From Plicaturopsis crispa FD-325 SS-3 (taxonomy: Eukaryota > Basidiomycota > Agaricomycetes > Amylocorticiales > Amylocorticiaceae): a stretch of 64,000 nucleotides of DNA. A program made the translations under genes and the position numbers. Of the stretch, positions 48,006 through 55,021 are shown piece after piece; within the stretch, counting starts at the first letter, position 1; every line of letters begins with the position of its first letter. The stretch is taken from assembly GCA_000827205.1 (NCBI GenBank), contig KN832555.1, positions 2,268,248-2,332,247 on the forward strand, in the 5' to 3' direction. The notes under the pieces were generated by a model. It was not told the DNA's origin, ran no database searches, and was given only the letters and a program-made list of their open reading frames with translations.

Positions 48006-48025
48006 AGGTAGGTAGGTAGGTAGGT
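48006..48025. repeat. (AGGT)5 microsatellite, likely LINE 3' tail
   Basis: Five exact AGGT units plus a partial one. On the strand of the retrotransposon this reads (ACCT)n and comes about 285 nt after its last ORF, where a LINE would carry a simple-repeat tail. Confidence 0.7.
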
Positions 48026-48310
48026 AGTATTAGCCGGTTTGATGATCCCATCCAAGGATAGCCGGTAACCGTACGACATACATGAGCGTCGACTGTATGC
48101 TACGTGAACATCCCAAACCCAATCCGTTGTGAACAGCTCGAAACTCCACCAGGGTTCTGCGCGCGCGCGACAAGCTCAGACCTATTGCGCGCAGCCAGTG
48201 ACTCCCCAGTCATCAGTAGACGAGCGTCTCCCGGACCAGTATCATCGGGGATGCGAGTAATCCGAGTACACTTATCCCATCTGAAATCGGTCATTATGGA
48301 CTTGTTAGGT

Positions 48311-51300
48311 CTATTCAAACAAGTGGCGTGGTACGAGGTACATCTCGTGGCCCTCAAATATGTCGAACACGTCCGCTACGAATCTCCCCAGTCTCTTCGC
48401 AACCTTCTTACTGCCACAGAGCTTCCGGAGTCGATCCAAAGCAGGCGCGTTCCCATCGCCGCTTGCAGTCCCTCGCGCGTCAATTATCTGCGCGTCCTCT
48501 AGAAACCGTTTCCGTAGGCAAGCCAAGTCCCCATTCCCGTCGCATATCAAGAGTGCGTGGCATTCGTCTTCCACCCCAACGTGACAGAATCTGCATAGCC
48601 GCCATTCCCTAGGGATGCGTTTGCGGTACCGTTCATCCCAGCGCCCTCGTTCCACCGCAAAGGGCGTGTCCCCTTGCAGCAGCCGGGTCAACGCTTTCCG
48701 GTGGCGTGCAATCGGTAGGAAGAGATAGTGACGGAACGCCATCGCAGTGACCTGTAGTCGCCCGATGCCGTCCGTTTCGAGCCTGTGATGCAGCAAGTAT
48801 GTTTTCGGGGAGTCCAGCAGGCATTTCTGTAGCCATGTGTCGCACGATAGTTTGACCGCGTCGATTGTTGCCAAGAGTCCGTCCTCTGTCATCAGATGAT
48901 CGGGTAGTAGTACGGGCGTCGGCAGCGAGCAAAGGACATGTCGCAAGTCACCAACCCAGCACGCTCGGCCACGTCGTGCCAGCGCCAGCGAGTCCAGCAA
49001 CGCTGCACGAGCAAACCGCCTCTCGGGCAATCCAATTAGGTACCGTGCGTATCGCAAGGCCAGAGTGACGCGCCTGAACTTGATGGGGAGTACTCCAGTT
49101 TCCGTGAATAAGGTGCAAATTAGTCCTCTGCGATTCACCCCCAGTAGTCTCCGAAGGAACGAGTGCTGCGCGTCCTCGAGCTCTTTCAGCAAGCCCTCGT
49201 CGACGTCCAGAGCTACTTCGCACCCCGAGATCAGGTGCGGGTCGACACGGGCCATATAGAGTTGCCTTCCTTCGAATGCGGGCATCGCTCCAATTCTGTG
49301 TTCCACCGCAAAAATCGCATGGGACATGTTTACTGCCTTGGACGCCTTTGTTATGTAGTGCTCTGCAAATATATTCCGGTGCGTCGACCGGAACCATACG
49401 CCGACATACTTGTAGCAGTCGACGAGCGTGATTGTGGTGTCGCCTATGTGAATAGTTGGTATAGGCGTCGGTATCTCCCCGAAGATCATCCAACTGCATT
49501 TGAGCGCCGCGATCACCATAAAGTTGACACTGCACCATATCATGAATGTCGCAATCTTCCGTTGGACACCAGCCGCGGTGGTCGACCAGATCGCCACGTC
49601 GTCCGCCTGTGCGACAAAAGAGACACGCCTTCCGTTCAGCATGATGTCGTCGACGTCCTCTGGCACGTTACAGTCGGCGAAATATAGGTTCCAAAGCCCA
49701 GGGGACGCCGTGTCGCCAGTCAGCAGCCCCACCAGCGACGCGAACTCAGCGGAGGTCATCTTTCCATGTCGCACCAGGTACGCCATTTGCGCATACAGCT
49801 TTCGCATCCAGTCAAAGAGAGGTCCACCCCCTCCCCTTCGGTACAGTTTGATCCATAGCGTTGCCAAGTCCGTCGACGGGAATGCGTTCTTCAAGTCAAT
49901 GAACACCACGAAGAGAGGCTTCCCCAGGGATCTTGCTTTGTCAATCGCGCAGCGTAACACCAGCGAGTTGTCGTTTGTACGGTGGTTCTCCTGGAAACCG
50001 TTCTGGTAGTCCGGGATTATGTCCTCTGCCAGTGCCCACTCTCTGTAGCGTCGATCCACTAGCAGGGTGAGTACCTTTCCCACCGTCGTTCAAGTCAGCT
50101 CCATGACACGACGGTATATCCAGCACATTGCAAGTACCTTGAGCAGGCACGACTCGAGGCCAATTATCCTATAGCTCTCCGGATCCCGTTCGGGCTTGCC
50201 CGTCTTCAGTATTCCAATCAGGATTGTCCTCGTCCATATTCTGGGAGTGTCGATCTCTGTGATGCAGGTATTGAAGAGCTCTAGGATAATCTCGTTTGGT
50301 ATTGTCATGATCTCTCCGTACGACACGCGGTCCAACCCCCTCGCACTCGTCGGCTTGTGCTTCCTGATCGTCCGTTTGGCCCATTGCATCTCCTCCTCCG
50401 TGAATACACGCGAGAAGAACTTCTCCGCCGTCCGGTCCACTGTCGTCGACGGGAGAGCACTGATCAGCCAGGTGTTGTGTTCGTGGATTCCCATGTCGAA
50501 GTGCGCAGGAGGTACACTCGGTGGGTTCAAGCGTCGCTCGAACACTCCCATCAGCTGGGATGCGGAGACGCGAATTGCCCGCACTTTAGCATCTGTCCAC
50601 TTGCGGATGAGCACCCAGAACTCCCCGTTGCTTTCGCATGCCAGTAACTCCAGCAGGTTAGCGTGTTTCGCCATTCGCTCCCTGTTCCGACCACGCCGTT
50701 TTTCGAGTATGCCGTCGTCGATGTCGTTCACGCCCCCGATGTCGGTGTCCCTCGGTCGTGTCGTCTCTTGGACCTTCATAGTCGTCGTCACTTTCGCCAT
50801 AGCCAGTGTCGGCCTCCCACTGGCATCCGCTCCCACGGGAAGACTCCACTCGTCCACCACCGCCAGGGCCAGATTCATCGTGAGAGAAGCTCTGGCGAGA
50901 TTCGCAGCGGCGCAGGCGTGTTTGTTCAACCGTCGGTCGTCAACCATCATGAACGCCGTTGGCGCGCTGCGGTCGTGCAGAGCCTTCACCCCCAGGCGCA
51001 TCAGGTCGCCGTCTTTCCCCGGCCATCCTTGTGCCGCATTTCTTCCAGCGCGTACGCAGAACGCAAGAATTACAAACCGCGAAGGTGTGTACACAGCCAG
51101 TGCTCGTCTCGCAGGGATTCGACTCAGTGCCCGGAGCACCCCCATTATTATCGCTCTGTTGTCGGTCTGATCCCCCGCGAAGTGCAGCGCCTCGTTCTTC
51201 GGGCTCTTCTCTCCCCAGTATATTCCGACCGCAGCTCTCCTATGAGTTGTATCACCCGTCGATGTCGAAGAGCAGATATACACTGGGATAGCCGGTCCGT

Positions 51301-52237
51301 TGTCGTGCACTACTCCATAAAGCTCGTTCGTCGCTTCTGTCTCGCTTTGTGCAGCCTTGCGAGCACGATCGAGGAGCAGATCCAGTTTCGACGCGGCGGG
51401 CGGTGCCGGACGAAAGACGCCTAGCTCCTCATCCTCGTCCTGGTCGCTGTTGCTCTCGTACCCCGGGAATTCCATTCGCACGGTAAGTATTGCATGGTCC
51501 GACCAGTCTGTCTTCTCGCTGACACTCATCGATTTGATAGCGTCGAGTAGTCTCGACGAACAGATAGCGAAGTCAATTACAGAGCATCCGTTTGTTTGGA
51601 ACGATGTGAACGCTCCCGGCGAGCTGTCTTCGAGCCAAGTGCCGTTTAGGATCGCAAGTCGTGCGCTGTTGCACATGCGCAGCAGCCAACGTCCTCGTGT
51701 GTTAGGCACCCCATCGTCTTCGGAGGAACGTCCCAATCCGCATCGGCGCGGTGTCAGGCTGCCAATTCGGGCGTTAAGATCGCCCATGAGGAGCACAGGC
51801 TTCTCAGGGTTTGTGGTACAGAATGTCACGACGTCCCGTAGTCTGTCCTCTGGATGTATTTGCGACCATTCGTGCCAGTTCGAACCAGTCGGTAGGATAT
51901 ACGAGCCAATGACGAACATGTCGTCGAGATCCAGGACAAGTAAGTCGGGCCCCGAGAGATCCTTCCTGACCTCGCAGTGAAGGCAGTCTCTAATGATCGC
52001 CGCCACTCCTCCTCCTAGCCGTCGTAGGCCAGTTCGATCGGGTCGTGGTGCGGATACGATGGAGTACCCTTCCGGCAGGGTCAGAGTCTCTTCCTGGCCA
52101 GTGCGCAGCCATGTTTCGTTGAGGAGGAAGATGTCCGATGTCTGTATCAGTTTCACTATTTCCTCGTCCTCGAGTTTCTCTCCAACAGTTCCCCGAATAT
52201 TCCAGGATTTTATTATCAGACTAGGAAGATAGACAGT
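48311..52237 (-). pseudogene. LINE ORF2: APE endonuclease, RNase H-like domain, reverse transcriptase (one nonsense codon)
   Basis: The frame opens after TAA at 52240-52238 and runs 1309 codons, interrupted only by TGA at 50092-50090. Downstream sequence stays in the same frame. Endonuclease: SWNIRG, LLNETWL, GDLNARIG and SDHAIL carry the expected Asn, Glu, Asp and His. An RNase H-like segment (51286-50879) follows with AVGIYWG, QTDNRA and YTPSRFVI. RT: FIDLKNAF (motif A), GDTASPGLWN (motif B) and QADD (motif C, 49609-49598). The C-terminus has a CRFC...ECHALLIC zinc knuckle. No ATG precedes SWNIRG, so initiation is unclear. The first in-frame Met is inside the endonuclease. Confidence 0.88.
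50879..51286 (-). other. RNase H-like domain without catalytic acids, inside LINE ORF2
   Basis: Located between endonuclease and RT. The scaffold is readable: AVGIYWGEKSP, HFAGDQTDNRA, RALAVYTPSRFVI, NAAQGWPGKDGDLMR, APTAFMMVDD. The four acidic positions of RNase H (Asp of strand 1, Glu of the first helix, Asp of the YTDS motif, Asp of the last helix) appear replaced: VYICSS, RAIIM, YTPS and NKHACAAAN. It is inferred from motif spacing only. Confidence 0.65.
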
Positions 52238-52275: not shown

Positions 52276-53412
52276 CTACCATCCGGCGCCGCCGCCCTGC
52301 GTTGAGTTCCGGGTGTTACCCCCATTGTTCACCGTTACCATCTTCGCCGTCATCCCTTGCATTTCTGCGGGCGCGTTTGTCTGAATCGTCTGCACCAGCG
52401 TGTACGCCGCGGTGTACTCGCGAAAGCGGATGCTAAGCACCCCTTGGTCCTCCCGAAGTCGTATGGCATTCACGATACTGCCTTGGGAGATGTGTCCGAC
52501 GAGGTCACAAATTTGCCTAGCCAGCTCGCGAGGGTCGCCGCGATCTGTCACTGAGCTGACCAGCACGTCCCAGAACTCTCTTCCCATCGGACGGGGCCTC
52601 TTGTTGGGGGTGAAGGGGGCCTCGCGGTCGTCTCTATTTGCCGACATCGATGGCCCGGCGTGGGCGTTCGGTGCGCTTGTGTTGAAGGACGCGACTCTGC
52701 CCGTGGTGCTCTCCGAAGCGTTAAAACTTGCCGCCTGGGGCGCTCTTCTTTCTCCATACGCCTCAGCGGAGCGACGTGACTCCTCTCCGCCAGACGCCTC
52801 AGGACCGCGCACTGTGGTTGAGGGTGCCGCAGCGATGTCGCGTATTGCAGAGCCAATCATCTCGCCCACGGATGTTACCGTTGGCAGGGAGTCGATGGCG
52901 CCAATCACGCGGTCCAGTGTGGACCTCGTCGCCGCCATGGTTTCGTATAGATTGCGGAAGGTAGGGTCGTCCTCGAGTGCTAGGCTGCGCGAGGGGGGAG
53001 CGTCCGTGGCGGCGCGAAGGTCCTTTATCATGAGCTCTAGTCCGCGTAGTCTGTCGTCATTGAGCCGAGCATTGGTCACTTCTGATCGCCGCAGGTTGAG
53101 CACCGTGCGGGCCATGACACCTTCGTTTTCCGTAAGTCGTTGCCGCGAAGCGCCCGCGTTCTCTCCCGGCGCCGCAGGAGTCATGCTCAGAGCATTGTAT
53201 GTGTCAGCGTCGCTCGCTGCACTCGCATTGGCCAAGGACGCCGTCGATGAGTCTAGTGGAATTGTCGCTGGGCGCTCCTTTCCCTTAGCCTTGATTGTTC
53301 CCCCAGCCTTCGAGACCGCTTTGGAGGACTGCTTGCGCAGGCTTCGGGTTGTGGAAGGGGGCGGAGCTCCCTTGGCGGATTGTATTGACGCGGCGTCCGC
53401 GTCCACGTCCAT
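52276..53412 (-). CDS. LINE ORF1 (gag-like RNA-binding protein)
   Basis: 378 residues, intact. The N-terminus is Ala/Ser/Lys-rich and disordered. The middle has charged helices (RTVLNLRRSEVTNARLNDDR) that could form a coiled coil. The C-terminus, ICDLVGHISQGSIVNAIRL through VLSIRFREYTAAYTLVQTIQT, has an RRM-like beta-alpha-beta look, and no CCHC knuckle is seen. By analogy with L1-type ORF1 it would coat element RNA. Identification rests mainly on position before ORF2. It ends TAG at 52278-52276, out of frame with ORF2. Confidence 0.75.
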   Translation of the reverse strand: MDVDADAASIQSAKGAPPPSTTRSLRKQSSKAVSKAGGTIKAKGKERPATIPLDSSTASLANASAASDADTYNALSMTPAAPGENAGASRQRLTENEGVMARTVLNLRRSEVTNARLNDDRLRGLELMIKDLRAATDAPPSRSLALEDDPTFRNLYETMAATRSTLDRVIGAIDSLPTVTSVGEMIGSAIRDIAAAPSTTVRGPEASGGEESRRSAEAYGERRAPQAASFNASESTTGRVASFNTSAPNAHAGPSMSANRDDREAPFTPNKRPRPMGREFWDVLVSSVTDRGDPRELARQICDLVGHISQGSIVNAIRLREDQGVLSIRFREYTAAYTLVQTIQTNAPAEMQGMTAKMVTVNNGGNTRNSTQGGGAGW

Positions 53413-53535
53413 TGTTTCCGTCGGGCGAGTGTTCGCTCCCAGACCAGCAACAGGGCCGCTACAAGGCCATAATTAGTCTCGCGGACCAATCTAGGTGTTT
53501 GCATAGCGATGTACCTCATTTGCACCCGGTCAATA

Positions 53536-55021
53536 TCATACGATTAAATTCTGTTGAGAGGATACAGAGGTGTTTGCTGTGGCTACTCCCAGTGCACGGT
53601 CCGGCTTAGAGCAGATTTTGAATATTCTGACATCTTCGGCAGCACCGCCTTCAGGGAGCCCACCAAACATCTGACTGTCGAAATGCGCGTCCACGCGCTT
53701 GAGATGCAGGCTCTCCGCTGCGGACACAGAAGCGATCAGTATCACGAATGGCATGGCGTGAAAAAAAAAACACGCACCGGCAGTATTGGTGAACATGTCC
53801 AGAGTACCCGCATTCCTGACGGTTAGCGCAACATATGCAACGCGTGCGCTATCACCCGGCAGCGGTGCATTTAAGAGAGAGTGCAAAGTCTCTACTAAGG
53901 GAGCAATAAGTTCGGGGTCGAATACCTGCCATGGAATAAGAACTCGTCCGCGTCTGTATTTCAAGATGCTCACAATATCGGCACCGAGAATGATGTCCGC
54001 GTCATGGGTAAGGGCGGCTGGAATATCTCCCCACTCGAGCTGAGAGCACTCGACTTCACGTCTACTAGACAAATCTAGGGTGCATACGGGACAAATGAAT
54101 GGCGAAACGGGAGATCCAAAATAAACACGTACTACATGGTAGGCCGACGTTTGCACGGCATCTGCCTAGAACTTCTTCATTGTTGTCCGTCAAGCACAAG
54201 GAGCCACCACTGCCTTCTGTTCCGTACAGATGCTGGATGCTCGCACACACTATGCCCAGGACGCCCGTTCCACAGCCAAGTTCAAGTACGTTCTTGTCGA
54301 TAATCATCTCTAAGAGATGCAACTGCTCAGTCCTCAAGAAACGCGCTAATAATCGAAGGAATTTCCTACCTGGGTGCGATATGATATAATGGGATAGCAC
54401 AAGGCCAGCGCCCCAAGTCCTAAGTCCTGTCGTACCATTTTCTATGGTGGTGCGGGATTCCAGCAGTGTCGTAGTATTCCAATTGCTCAAATTGACAGCT
54501 CCGTGCGCATCTGGAGTGTCTCTTATCTTCCAGAAATGTGTCGCATAACACGGAGGCGGGGGCAGGCCGCCGCTGGAGGTCGTAATTAGGTACACGCGTT
54601 GGGACGTCGGTTTCAAACATACGCGGATAACGAGGGCAAGAGGGAGACATAATGATCATATATCCGGGAATCGATTTCAACGTCCTTCAAAGCGGATCCA
54701 AACATGAGCATCGAAGTGGACGGTATTGACGACGTCGCGTGCCTCGTCAGTCTTCAAAAGTGCCCCCTCCAGGTTATGGATAGCCCATTTCCAAAAAGTG
54801 TGCTCATAGAGACTAGAGGGTGGGTAGGCTCGCAGGTGTGTATTGCACAAGATATCGTCGACAAGAAAGTCGTTGATGTCGCGCAACGGTGTCTTGGACG
54901 GAAAAGTAAGATGCCTAGGCGGCACTAGCGCGCAGTACCCTCGCAGCAAACGGAACGTATCCTCAGATAGACCGCGTCTTGGAGAGACTTCCAGTTCTCT
55001 AGCAGGCGAATGTAGAGGCAT
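53536..55021 (-). CDS. eEF2 lysine methyltransferase EFM3 (FAM86 family)
   Basis: Six exons: 55021 to about 54734, 54684-54623, 54572-54370, 54309-54133, 54074-53778, 53717-53536, about 402 residues. The N-terminal region reads LLRGYCALVPPRHL and YEHTFWKWAI. The methyltransferase core has ENGTTGLRTWGAG, VLELGCGTGVLGI, CLTDNNEEVL, QLEWGD and DADIILGADIV. It ends VAYVALTVRN ... EDVRIFKI followed by 27 extra residues up to the stop. Family knowledge: EFM3/FAM86 methylates a Lys of elongation factor 2. The first exon end and the start codon are uncertain. The retrotransposon begins immediately downstream, so the extra tail may come from changed 3' sequence. Confidence 0.85.

Follow-up and report, generated by a model that had tools for sequence, protein, structure and literature searches.

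The window, by which we mean the whole stretch of 64,000 nucleotides of Plicaturopsis crispa FD-325 SS-3 DNA that was analysed (contig KN832555.1, positions 2,268,248 to 2,332,247 of the forward strand), carries on its minus strand a retroelement whose ORF2 has an N-terminal APE-type endonuclease (EN) and a reverse transcriptase (RT), the combination that defines an APE-type LINE. Between these two enzymes lies an RNase H1-like domain in which every catalytic acid has been replaced. In the following, W denotes the element in the window, and B and C denote two diverged relatives in the same genome. The main features of W are listed below, in window coordinates.

52276..53472, minus strand: ORF1, 398 residues, stop to stop
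50090..52237, minus strand: first open part of ORF2, with the endonuclease, the RNase H-like domain and the N-terminal region of the RT; it stops at the TGA at 50092-50090
51494..52207, minus strand: APE-type endonuclease domain (Pfam Exo_endo_phos, E 1.1e-13)
50879..51301, minus strand: acid-less RNase H1-like domain, 141 residues, between EN and RT
50075..50137, minus strand: 63-base in-frame insertion with a premature TGA, in the N-terminal part of the RT
48311..50089, minus strand: second open part of ORF2, with the RT (Pfam RVT_1, E 2e-13) and the C-terminal region
48595-48542, minus strand: CxxC...H...C knuckle in the C-terminal region of ORF2, found by eye and invariant in the three copies
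48006..48138, minus strand: conserved 3' end, terminating in a (TACC)n tail at 48006-48027

Every motif quoted in a preliminary description of this DNA was recovered, but from the minus strand of 50879-51286; the plus-strand translation is without them. No strand had been given, and the bounds of the domain are better set at 51301-50879. The same description took the EN and RT motifs, in one frame, to look intact, which is correct only in part. The motifs that we take to be the catalytic ones are there (NETW, GDLNAR, VIDFA and SDHAIL in the EN, and FIDLKNAF and AQADDV in the RT), but the TGA at 50092-50090 splits the N-terminal part of the RT. The 63-base insertion that holds this TGA (50137-50075) is missing from B and C, has its ends marked by an 8-base direct repeat, and shows GT at its start, CTGAC at 50098-50094 and AG at its end; it may be a candidate intron or a small insertion in a LINE ORF.

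Motif C of the RT reads AQADD in all three copies (W: 49598-49612, minus strand), and LINEs usually have an aromatic residue at the position of this Gln. Among solved structures, R2-type RTs are the best match of the RT part (E 5.3e-8), a match that does not place the element in a clade. ORF1 gave no match in a Pfam search and is 36% identical, over 264 residues, to the ORF directly upstream of the ORF2 of B. Inspection by eye shows ORFs similar to a methyltransferase gene immediately before the 5' side of the LINE (53536-54655, minus strand).

The 3' end of W (48006-48138) recurs with 76-77% identity over 124 to 131 bases at four other places in the genome, and two additional places match shorter pieces; this conserved block may be the part recognised by the RT. 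The block and its (TACC)n tail are common to the W and B subfamilies at 77% DNA identity, which exceeds the protein identity of their ORF2, at only 52% (first part) to 69% (second part). Two hallmarks of LINEs are seen among these copies, namely a simple-repeat 3' tail, which is (TACC)n in W, B and the copies at C6 and C7, and 5' truncation with different flanks, as the copies at C6 and C7 match the 3' end of B only. The match is 99% over 557 bases at C7 and 94% over 822 bases at C6, and in each case the (TACC)n tail is followed by different sequence. Judging from these near-identical 3' copies with different flanks, subfamily B has inserted recently. The copy that drove these insertions would have carried the acid-less domain, before which the short 3' copies stop.

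A search of the genome with the first part of ORF2 gave B at C2:2520897-2522990 (52%) and C at C11:606209-607540 (38%), the latter with a short piece beside it, as well as two RNase H-only matches to LINEs that we take to be Tad-like, a name given by resemblance and recall. There are three such Tad-like LINEs in this genome (C18:21925, C11:37428 and C18:363293), and their RNase H is recognisably related to the W domain. The frame of B is listed as 1379 residues, of which 1268 are open before a gap of N and hold EN, domain and RT. The gap consists of 224 N, and a 471-base stretch is 100% identical on both of its sides (L020:1665-2717), a repetition that is probably an assembly artefact. The frame of C is broken, and no EN match was obtained upstream of query residue 228 in any frame. 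With the RT part there were 12 matches including the window; nine of these are partial, one of them being the repeated piece of B, and the eight other RT-match loci, when tested for the domain, gave no match better than E 0.30. All copies found that reach upstream of the RT (3/3) have the acid-less domain in the same place, and the position between APE endonuclease and RT that had been described for the window is thus common to W, B and C. Domain and RT profiles run against a viral collection, the RT profile against prokaryote genomes and the first part of ORF2 against plasmids gave no relatives; these collections are not fungal, so they are silent on fungi. An NCBIfam scan gave nothing useful.

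Compared singly with Pfam RNase_H, the W domain scores E 0.00088 and 19.9 bits, under the curated cut-off of 25.8, and the C domain scores E 0.00065, while the B domain gives no match. When W, B and C are combined into one joint profile, three human RNase H1 sequences are hit with E values from 5e-14 to 1.8e-13, and chain 3h08_A, another RNase H, is hit at E 0.0068. Human RNase H1 covers profile positions 2-99 and 3h08_A positions 31-139, which leaves little of the domain unmatched. Compared by hhalign with a profile built from two intact Tad-like RNases H of this genome, the domain profile reached 97% probability (positions 4-124), and in the alignment the domain is colinear with the host RNase H1 and the LINE RNases H. 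The GxQTxxRA spacing of host and human RNase H1 is kept in W and C, and B has GxQSxxR. That the domain is not an RNase H at all, its motifs resembling those of RNase H by chance, might be suspected from the lack of a Pfam match for B alone and from the poor single-sequence structure model; given a profile match at E 5e-14, an hhalign probability of 97% and a colinear alignment, this idea is hardly credible, and chance resemblance was rejected. On the strength of the profile match to human RNase H1 and the hhalign probability, we regard the W domain as RNase H-like, in agreement with the preliminary description. Its RNase H fold rests on homology, because the single-sequence model, with a pLDDT of 38.9, lends the fold no support.

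The origin of the domain is less clear-cut. The joint profile scores the host RNase H1 at 43.5 bits, versus 42.9-44.3 bits for the three Tad-like RNases H; taken singly, C scores the host enzyme higher, B scores the Tad-like enzymes higher and W shows no preference, and the tree does not settle the choice between a host-type and a Tad-like origin. A cellular type of origin is suggested by the GxQTxxRA spacing and by the match to human RNase H1. The host RNase H1 gene itself (L035), near C2:780,600, comprises four or more exons, the ends of which were set by eye, and encodes all catalytic residues.

The catalytic positions were read from an alignment with the host RNase H1 and the three intact Tad-like LINE RNases H. 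They are listed here together with one further motif of the domain.

51272..51274, minus strand: position of the first catalytic Asp; Cys in W, Ser in B and C
51149..51151, minus strand: position of the catalytic Glu; Ile in W, Thr in B, Ala in C
51083..51085, minus strand: position of the third catalytic acid, Asp; Pro in W and B, Asn in C
51041..51061, minus strand: FCxxAGR motif; W, B and C all have its named residues, which neither the host RNase H nor the Tad-like ones contain
50933..50935, minus strand: position of the catalytic His; Arg in W, B and C
50903..50905, minus strand: position of the fourth catalytic acid, Asp; Ala in W, Ser in B, His in C

None of the four catalytic acids D-E-D-D is kept in any of the three copies (0/4 in each), and the His is replaced in all three. 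For W, this confirms the earlier reading that all four acids are lost, D, E, D and D having become C, I, P and A, and adds the change of His to R. The full set D-E-D-H-D is kept in 8/8 comparator RNases H from the same genome, which comprise the host RNase H1, the three Tad-like LINEs and four other LINEs. These eight account for all but one of the nine Pfam RNase_H matches in the genome, among which W, B and C are absent; the ninth match (C15:659332) covers profile positions 110-140 only and was left out of the comparators. Identity to the host RNase H1 is 20.3-21.8% for the four other LINEs, and 24.5, 18.7 and 26.1% for W, B and C, respectively, which puts B slightly beyond all comparators in divergence. 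The acid loss cannot be put down to divergence alone, because the four intact LINE RNases H are similarly diverged from the host enzyme.

The preliminary description had argued that random decay should strike all domains alike, so that a loss confined to one active site would be telling. By itself this argument is weak. Each copy retains only 14 to 19 of the 44 other conserved positions, so that a chance loss of 4/4 acids would not be very improbable in any one of them, and a single copy is not strong evidence. Instead, the case for a common acid loss is carried by the loss shared among three relatives and by the eight intact comparators, and random decay of one copy was rejected since the loss is common to W, B and C. 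Sister copies with intact DEDD residues, named beforehand as the sign that only the window copy had decayed, were not found in this genome (0/3). The preliminary description also supposed that related agaricomycete elements combine this order with an intact active site, which is the case for 0/3 copies here. We also considered a second, active RNase H downstream. Pfam gives no second RNase H match in ORF2, including the part after the RT, and this candidate was rejected; an intact domain should have been seen, although the search also misses the domain of B, so that a degenerate one would escape it.

The domain aligns over 142 columns with 0 gaps across the three copies, at identities of 44% (W-B), 35% (W-C) and 34% (B-C). 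The linkers flanking it have identities of 23-26% and 16-29%, or 25, 21 and 24% when pooled, in the same order of pairs. Between W and B, identity is 60% in the EN and 61% in the region before the RT, and in the RT it is 76% (W-B), 67% (W-C) and 71% (B-C). One-sided Fisher tests of the domain against the pooled linkers give P 0.002, 0.009 and 0.05 for W-B, W-C and B-C, and three-way invariant columns number 35 of 142 in the domain versus 15 of 110 in the linkers (P 0.02); in these tests columns are taken as independent, and the three comparisons share sequences. Selection was gauged by pN and pS counts against the shuffled level, in three copies from one genome, of which only B has an open frame, and in diverged pairs only. 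In the domain, pS is 0.71-0.85 versus 0.73-0.77 after shuffling, with synonymous sites at or near saturation, and pN is 0.40-0.47 versus 0.73-0.74. Linker pN, at 0.43-0.62, is also under the shuffled level. Purifying selection, which had been put forward as the mark of a retained domain, is visible on the protein sequence of the domain. However, the constraint is only moderate, because changes have accumulated faster in the domain than in EN and RT, and linker 2 hardly differs from the domain in the W-B pair.

Fifteen of the 35 residues that are invariant in W, B and C are absent from host and Tad-like RNases H. These lineage-specific invariants include S11, next to where the first Asp would be, D122-R123 in place of the Gly-His, H128, and F81-C82-x-x-A85-G86-R87, and of these, S11, D122-R123 and H128 lie in or beside the old active-site motifs. 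In the RNase H tree, W, B and C form one group (support 100/99) with a long stem, and within it W groups with B (97/93), a topology to be read with a warning about long branches; RT identities give the same branching order.

The best explanation, in our view, is one ancestral loss of catalysis, after which the domain was kept as a folded, non-catalytic EN-RT module while a host RNase H does the cutting, and we hold this to be slightly likelier right than wrong. The ancestor of a low-copy fungal APE-type LINE lineage would have had an RNase H1-like domain between EN and RT. Catalysis in this domain would have been lost once, before the W, B and C subfamilies split, and the domain would then have been retained as a folded, non-catalytic module. 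The grouping of W, B and C, the RT branching order and the lineage-specific invariants fit, but do not prove, one loss followed by retention. Most likely, the module would serve as a platform or tether between EN and RT, at the place where human L1 ORF2p has its tower, and, in the course of target-primed reverse transcription, might hold the two enzymes, the template RNA or the target DNA in position. A host RNase H would remove the RNA strand, as it does for LINEs that lack such a domain, and it is the most likely agent because no second RNase H was found in ORF2 and the host RNase H1 gene is intact. The homology, the position, the shared acid loss, the constraint at the protein level and the recent 3' insertions of subfamily B were computed directly. 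The single ancestral loss, the lack of activity, the fold and the tether role are parts that we infer.

A bolder proposal, offered tentatively and with the balance somewhat against it, is that this lineage of mobile LINEs independently evolved its own counterpart of the retroviral connection domain, from a cellular-type RNase H1 between EN and RT that was ancestrally stripped of catalysis and whose old active-site face was rebuilt (S, DR, H and FCxxAGR) into an essential part for EN-RT coupling or for guiding nucleic acid.

Three other accounts of the domain have to be weighed against retention as a non-catalytic module. It could be a neutral relic, a disused RNase H1-like domain that now acts as a spacer and is constrained only by the open frame and by protein solubility. 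Such a relic would be expected to be less conserved than EN and RT, as is the case, and the failure of B alone to match Pfam RNase_H and the modest contrast with the linkers (P 0.002 to 0.05; in linker 2, a W-B pN of 0.43 versus 0.40 for the domain) agree with it. However, pN lies well under the shuffled level while synonymous sites are saturated, there are no gaps in the domain columns of the three copies, and the 15 lineage-specific invariant residues fall partly on old active-site motifs, so that we consider a neutral relic rather unlikely. It is very improbable, on the other hand, that a different site, metal-binding or hydrolytic, has been built from new residues such as D122, H128 and those of the acidic columns 37 and 99: columns 37, 99 and 122 are indeed acidic in all three copies and H128 is invariant, but the catalytic acid positions are occupied by none of them, D122 stands where the Gly preceding the catalytic His used to be, and a two-metal site looks unlikely.

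Finally, the domain might bind the RNA/DNA hybrid without cutting it and hold the nascent hybrid near the RT. Its RNase H1 ancestry would suit this function, as would an excess of Lys+Arg over Asp+Glu in the three copies (20 v 10, 16 v 11 and 17 v 10) and the residues T, S and T (W, B and C) found two positions past the site of the phosphate-pocket Arg, where the Thr is presumably part of the phosphate pocket of RNase H1. Nevertheless, the stretch beside the first Asp and the motif round the last Asp are rewritten. We take the NG that follows the first Asp and two Trp in the DNA channel to be substrate contacts of human RNase H1, and most of these residues are lost in our copies. The alignment column of the pocket Arg was set by residue numbering that we assume to be correct. 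At this column, where human RNase H1 has Arg179 (PMC8713576), our copies have D, T and A, although D is likewise found in the host enzyme. Hybrids can be stained with a human RNase H1 that lacks catalytic activity (PMC10830420), which speaks for binding without cleavage as a workable function; for this domain, we nonetheless judge a hybrid-holding role to be unlikely.

Among known systems, cellular RNase H1 is the best profile match of the domain, from which the W domain differs in the absence of D-E-D-H-D and in its carriage inside a LINE ORF2. The Tad-like LINEs of the same genome differ in having the RNase H after the RT (by Pfam in C18:21925, where EN, RT and RNase H are all matched, and by reading in the other two) and in keeping D-E-D-H-D; W departs from this Tad1-type order, as its domain precedes the RT. 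The Utopia non-LTR retrotransposons of oomycetes resemble W in carrying an RNase H upstream of the RT, a position called unique by the authors (PMC4640811). However, they have a restriction-like endonuclease and an archaeal-like RNase H with conserved D-E-D-H/R-D (PMC4640811), so W shares the RNase H position of Utopia and differs in its APE-type endonuclease. In the open-licence literature, we found neither an APE-type LINE with an RNase H between EN and RT nor a LINE RNase H without all of its acids; the fungal LINE survey of Novikova et al. (2009) is outside the scope of this search, and both results are weak evidence of absence.

The closest parallels in kind are found in other proteins. 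The connection (tether) domain of retroviral reverse transcriptase is likewise an inactive domain derived from RNase H, but it is a duplicate beside a functional RNase H (PMC5603734). The retroviral arrangement, with an inactive and an active RNase H next to each other and both after the RT, is not that of W, where the domain lies before the RT and no second one was found. Similarly, Prp8 has an RNase H-like domain with an incomplete active site beside an RT-derived domain, although Prp8 is a splicing factor and its domain still has two acids on the first strand (PMC5603734; PMC3985635); according to PMC3985635, this domain has no significant sequence similarity to the other families. The tower of human L1 ORF2p occupies the same EN-RT region as the W domain, but consists of a baseplate and protruding helices and bears no RNase H-like label in the available text of PMC10830420, where L1 is described as recruiting RNase H2 via PCNA.

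Overall, retroelements have acquired RNase H domains on repeated occasions, and in both retroviruses and Prp8 a dead or incomplete one has been retained next to an RT or a domain derived from an RT. If our preferred reading is true, this LINE would add another example from a different branch of retroelement history, with its dead RNase H1 in the place between EN and RT that is filled by a different domain in human L1, and the element offers a direct test of the role of the EN-RT region in target-primed reverse transcription.
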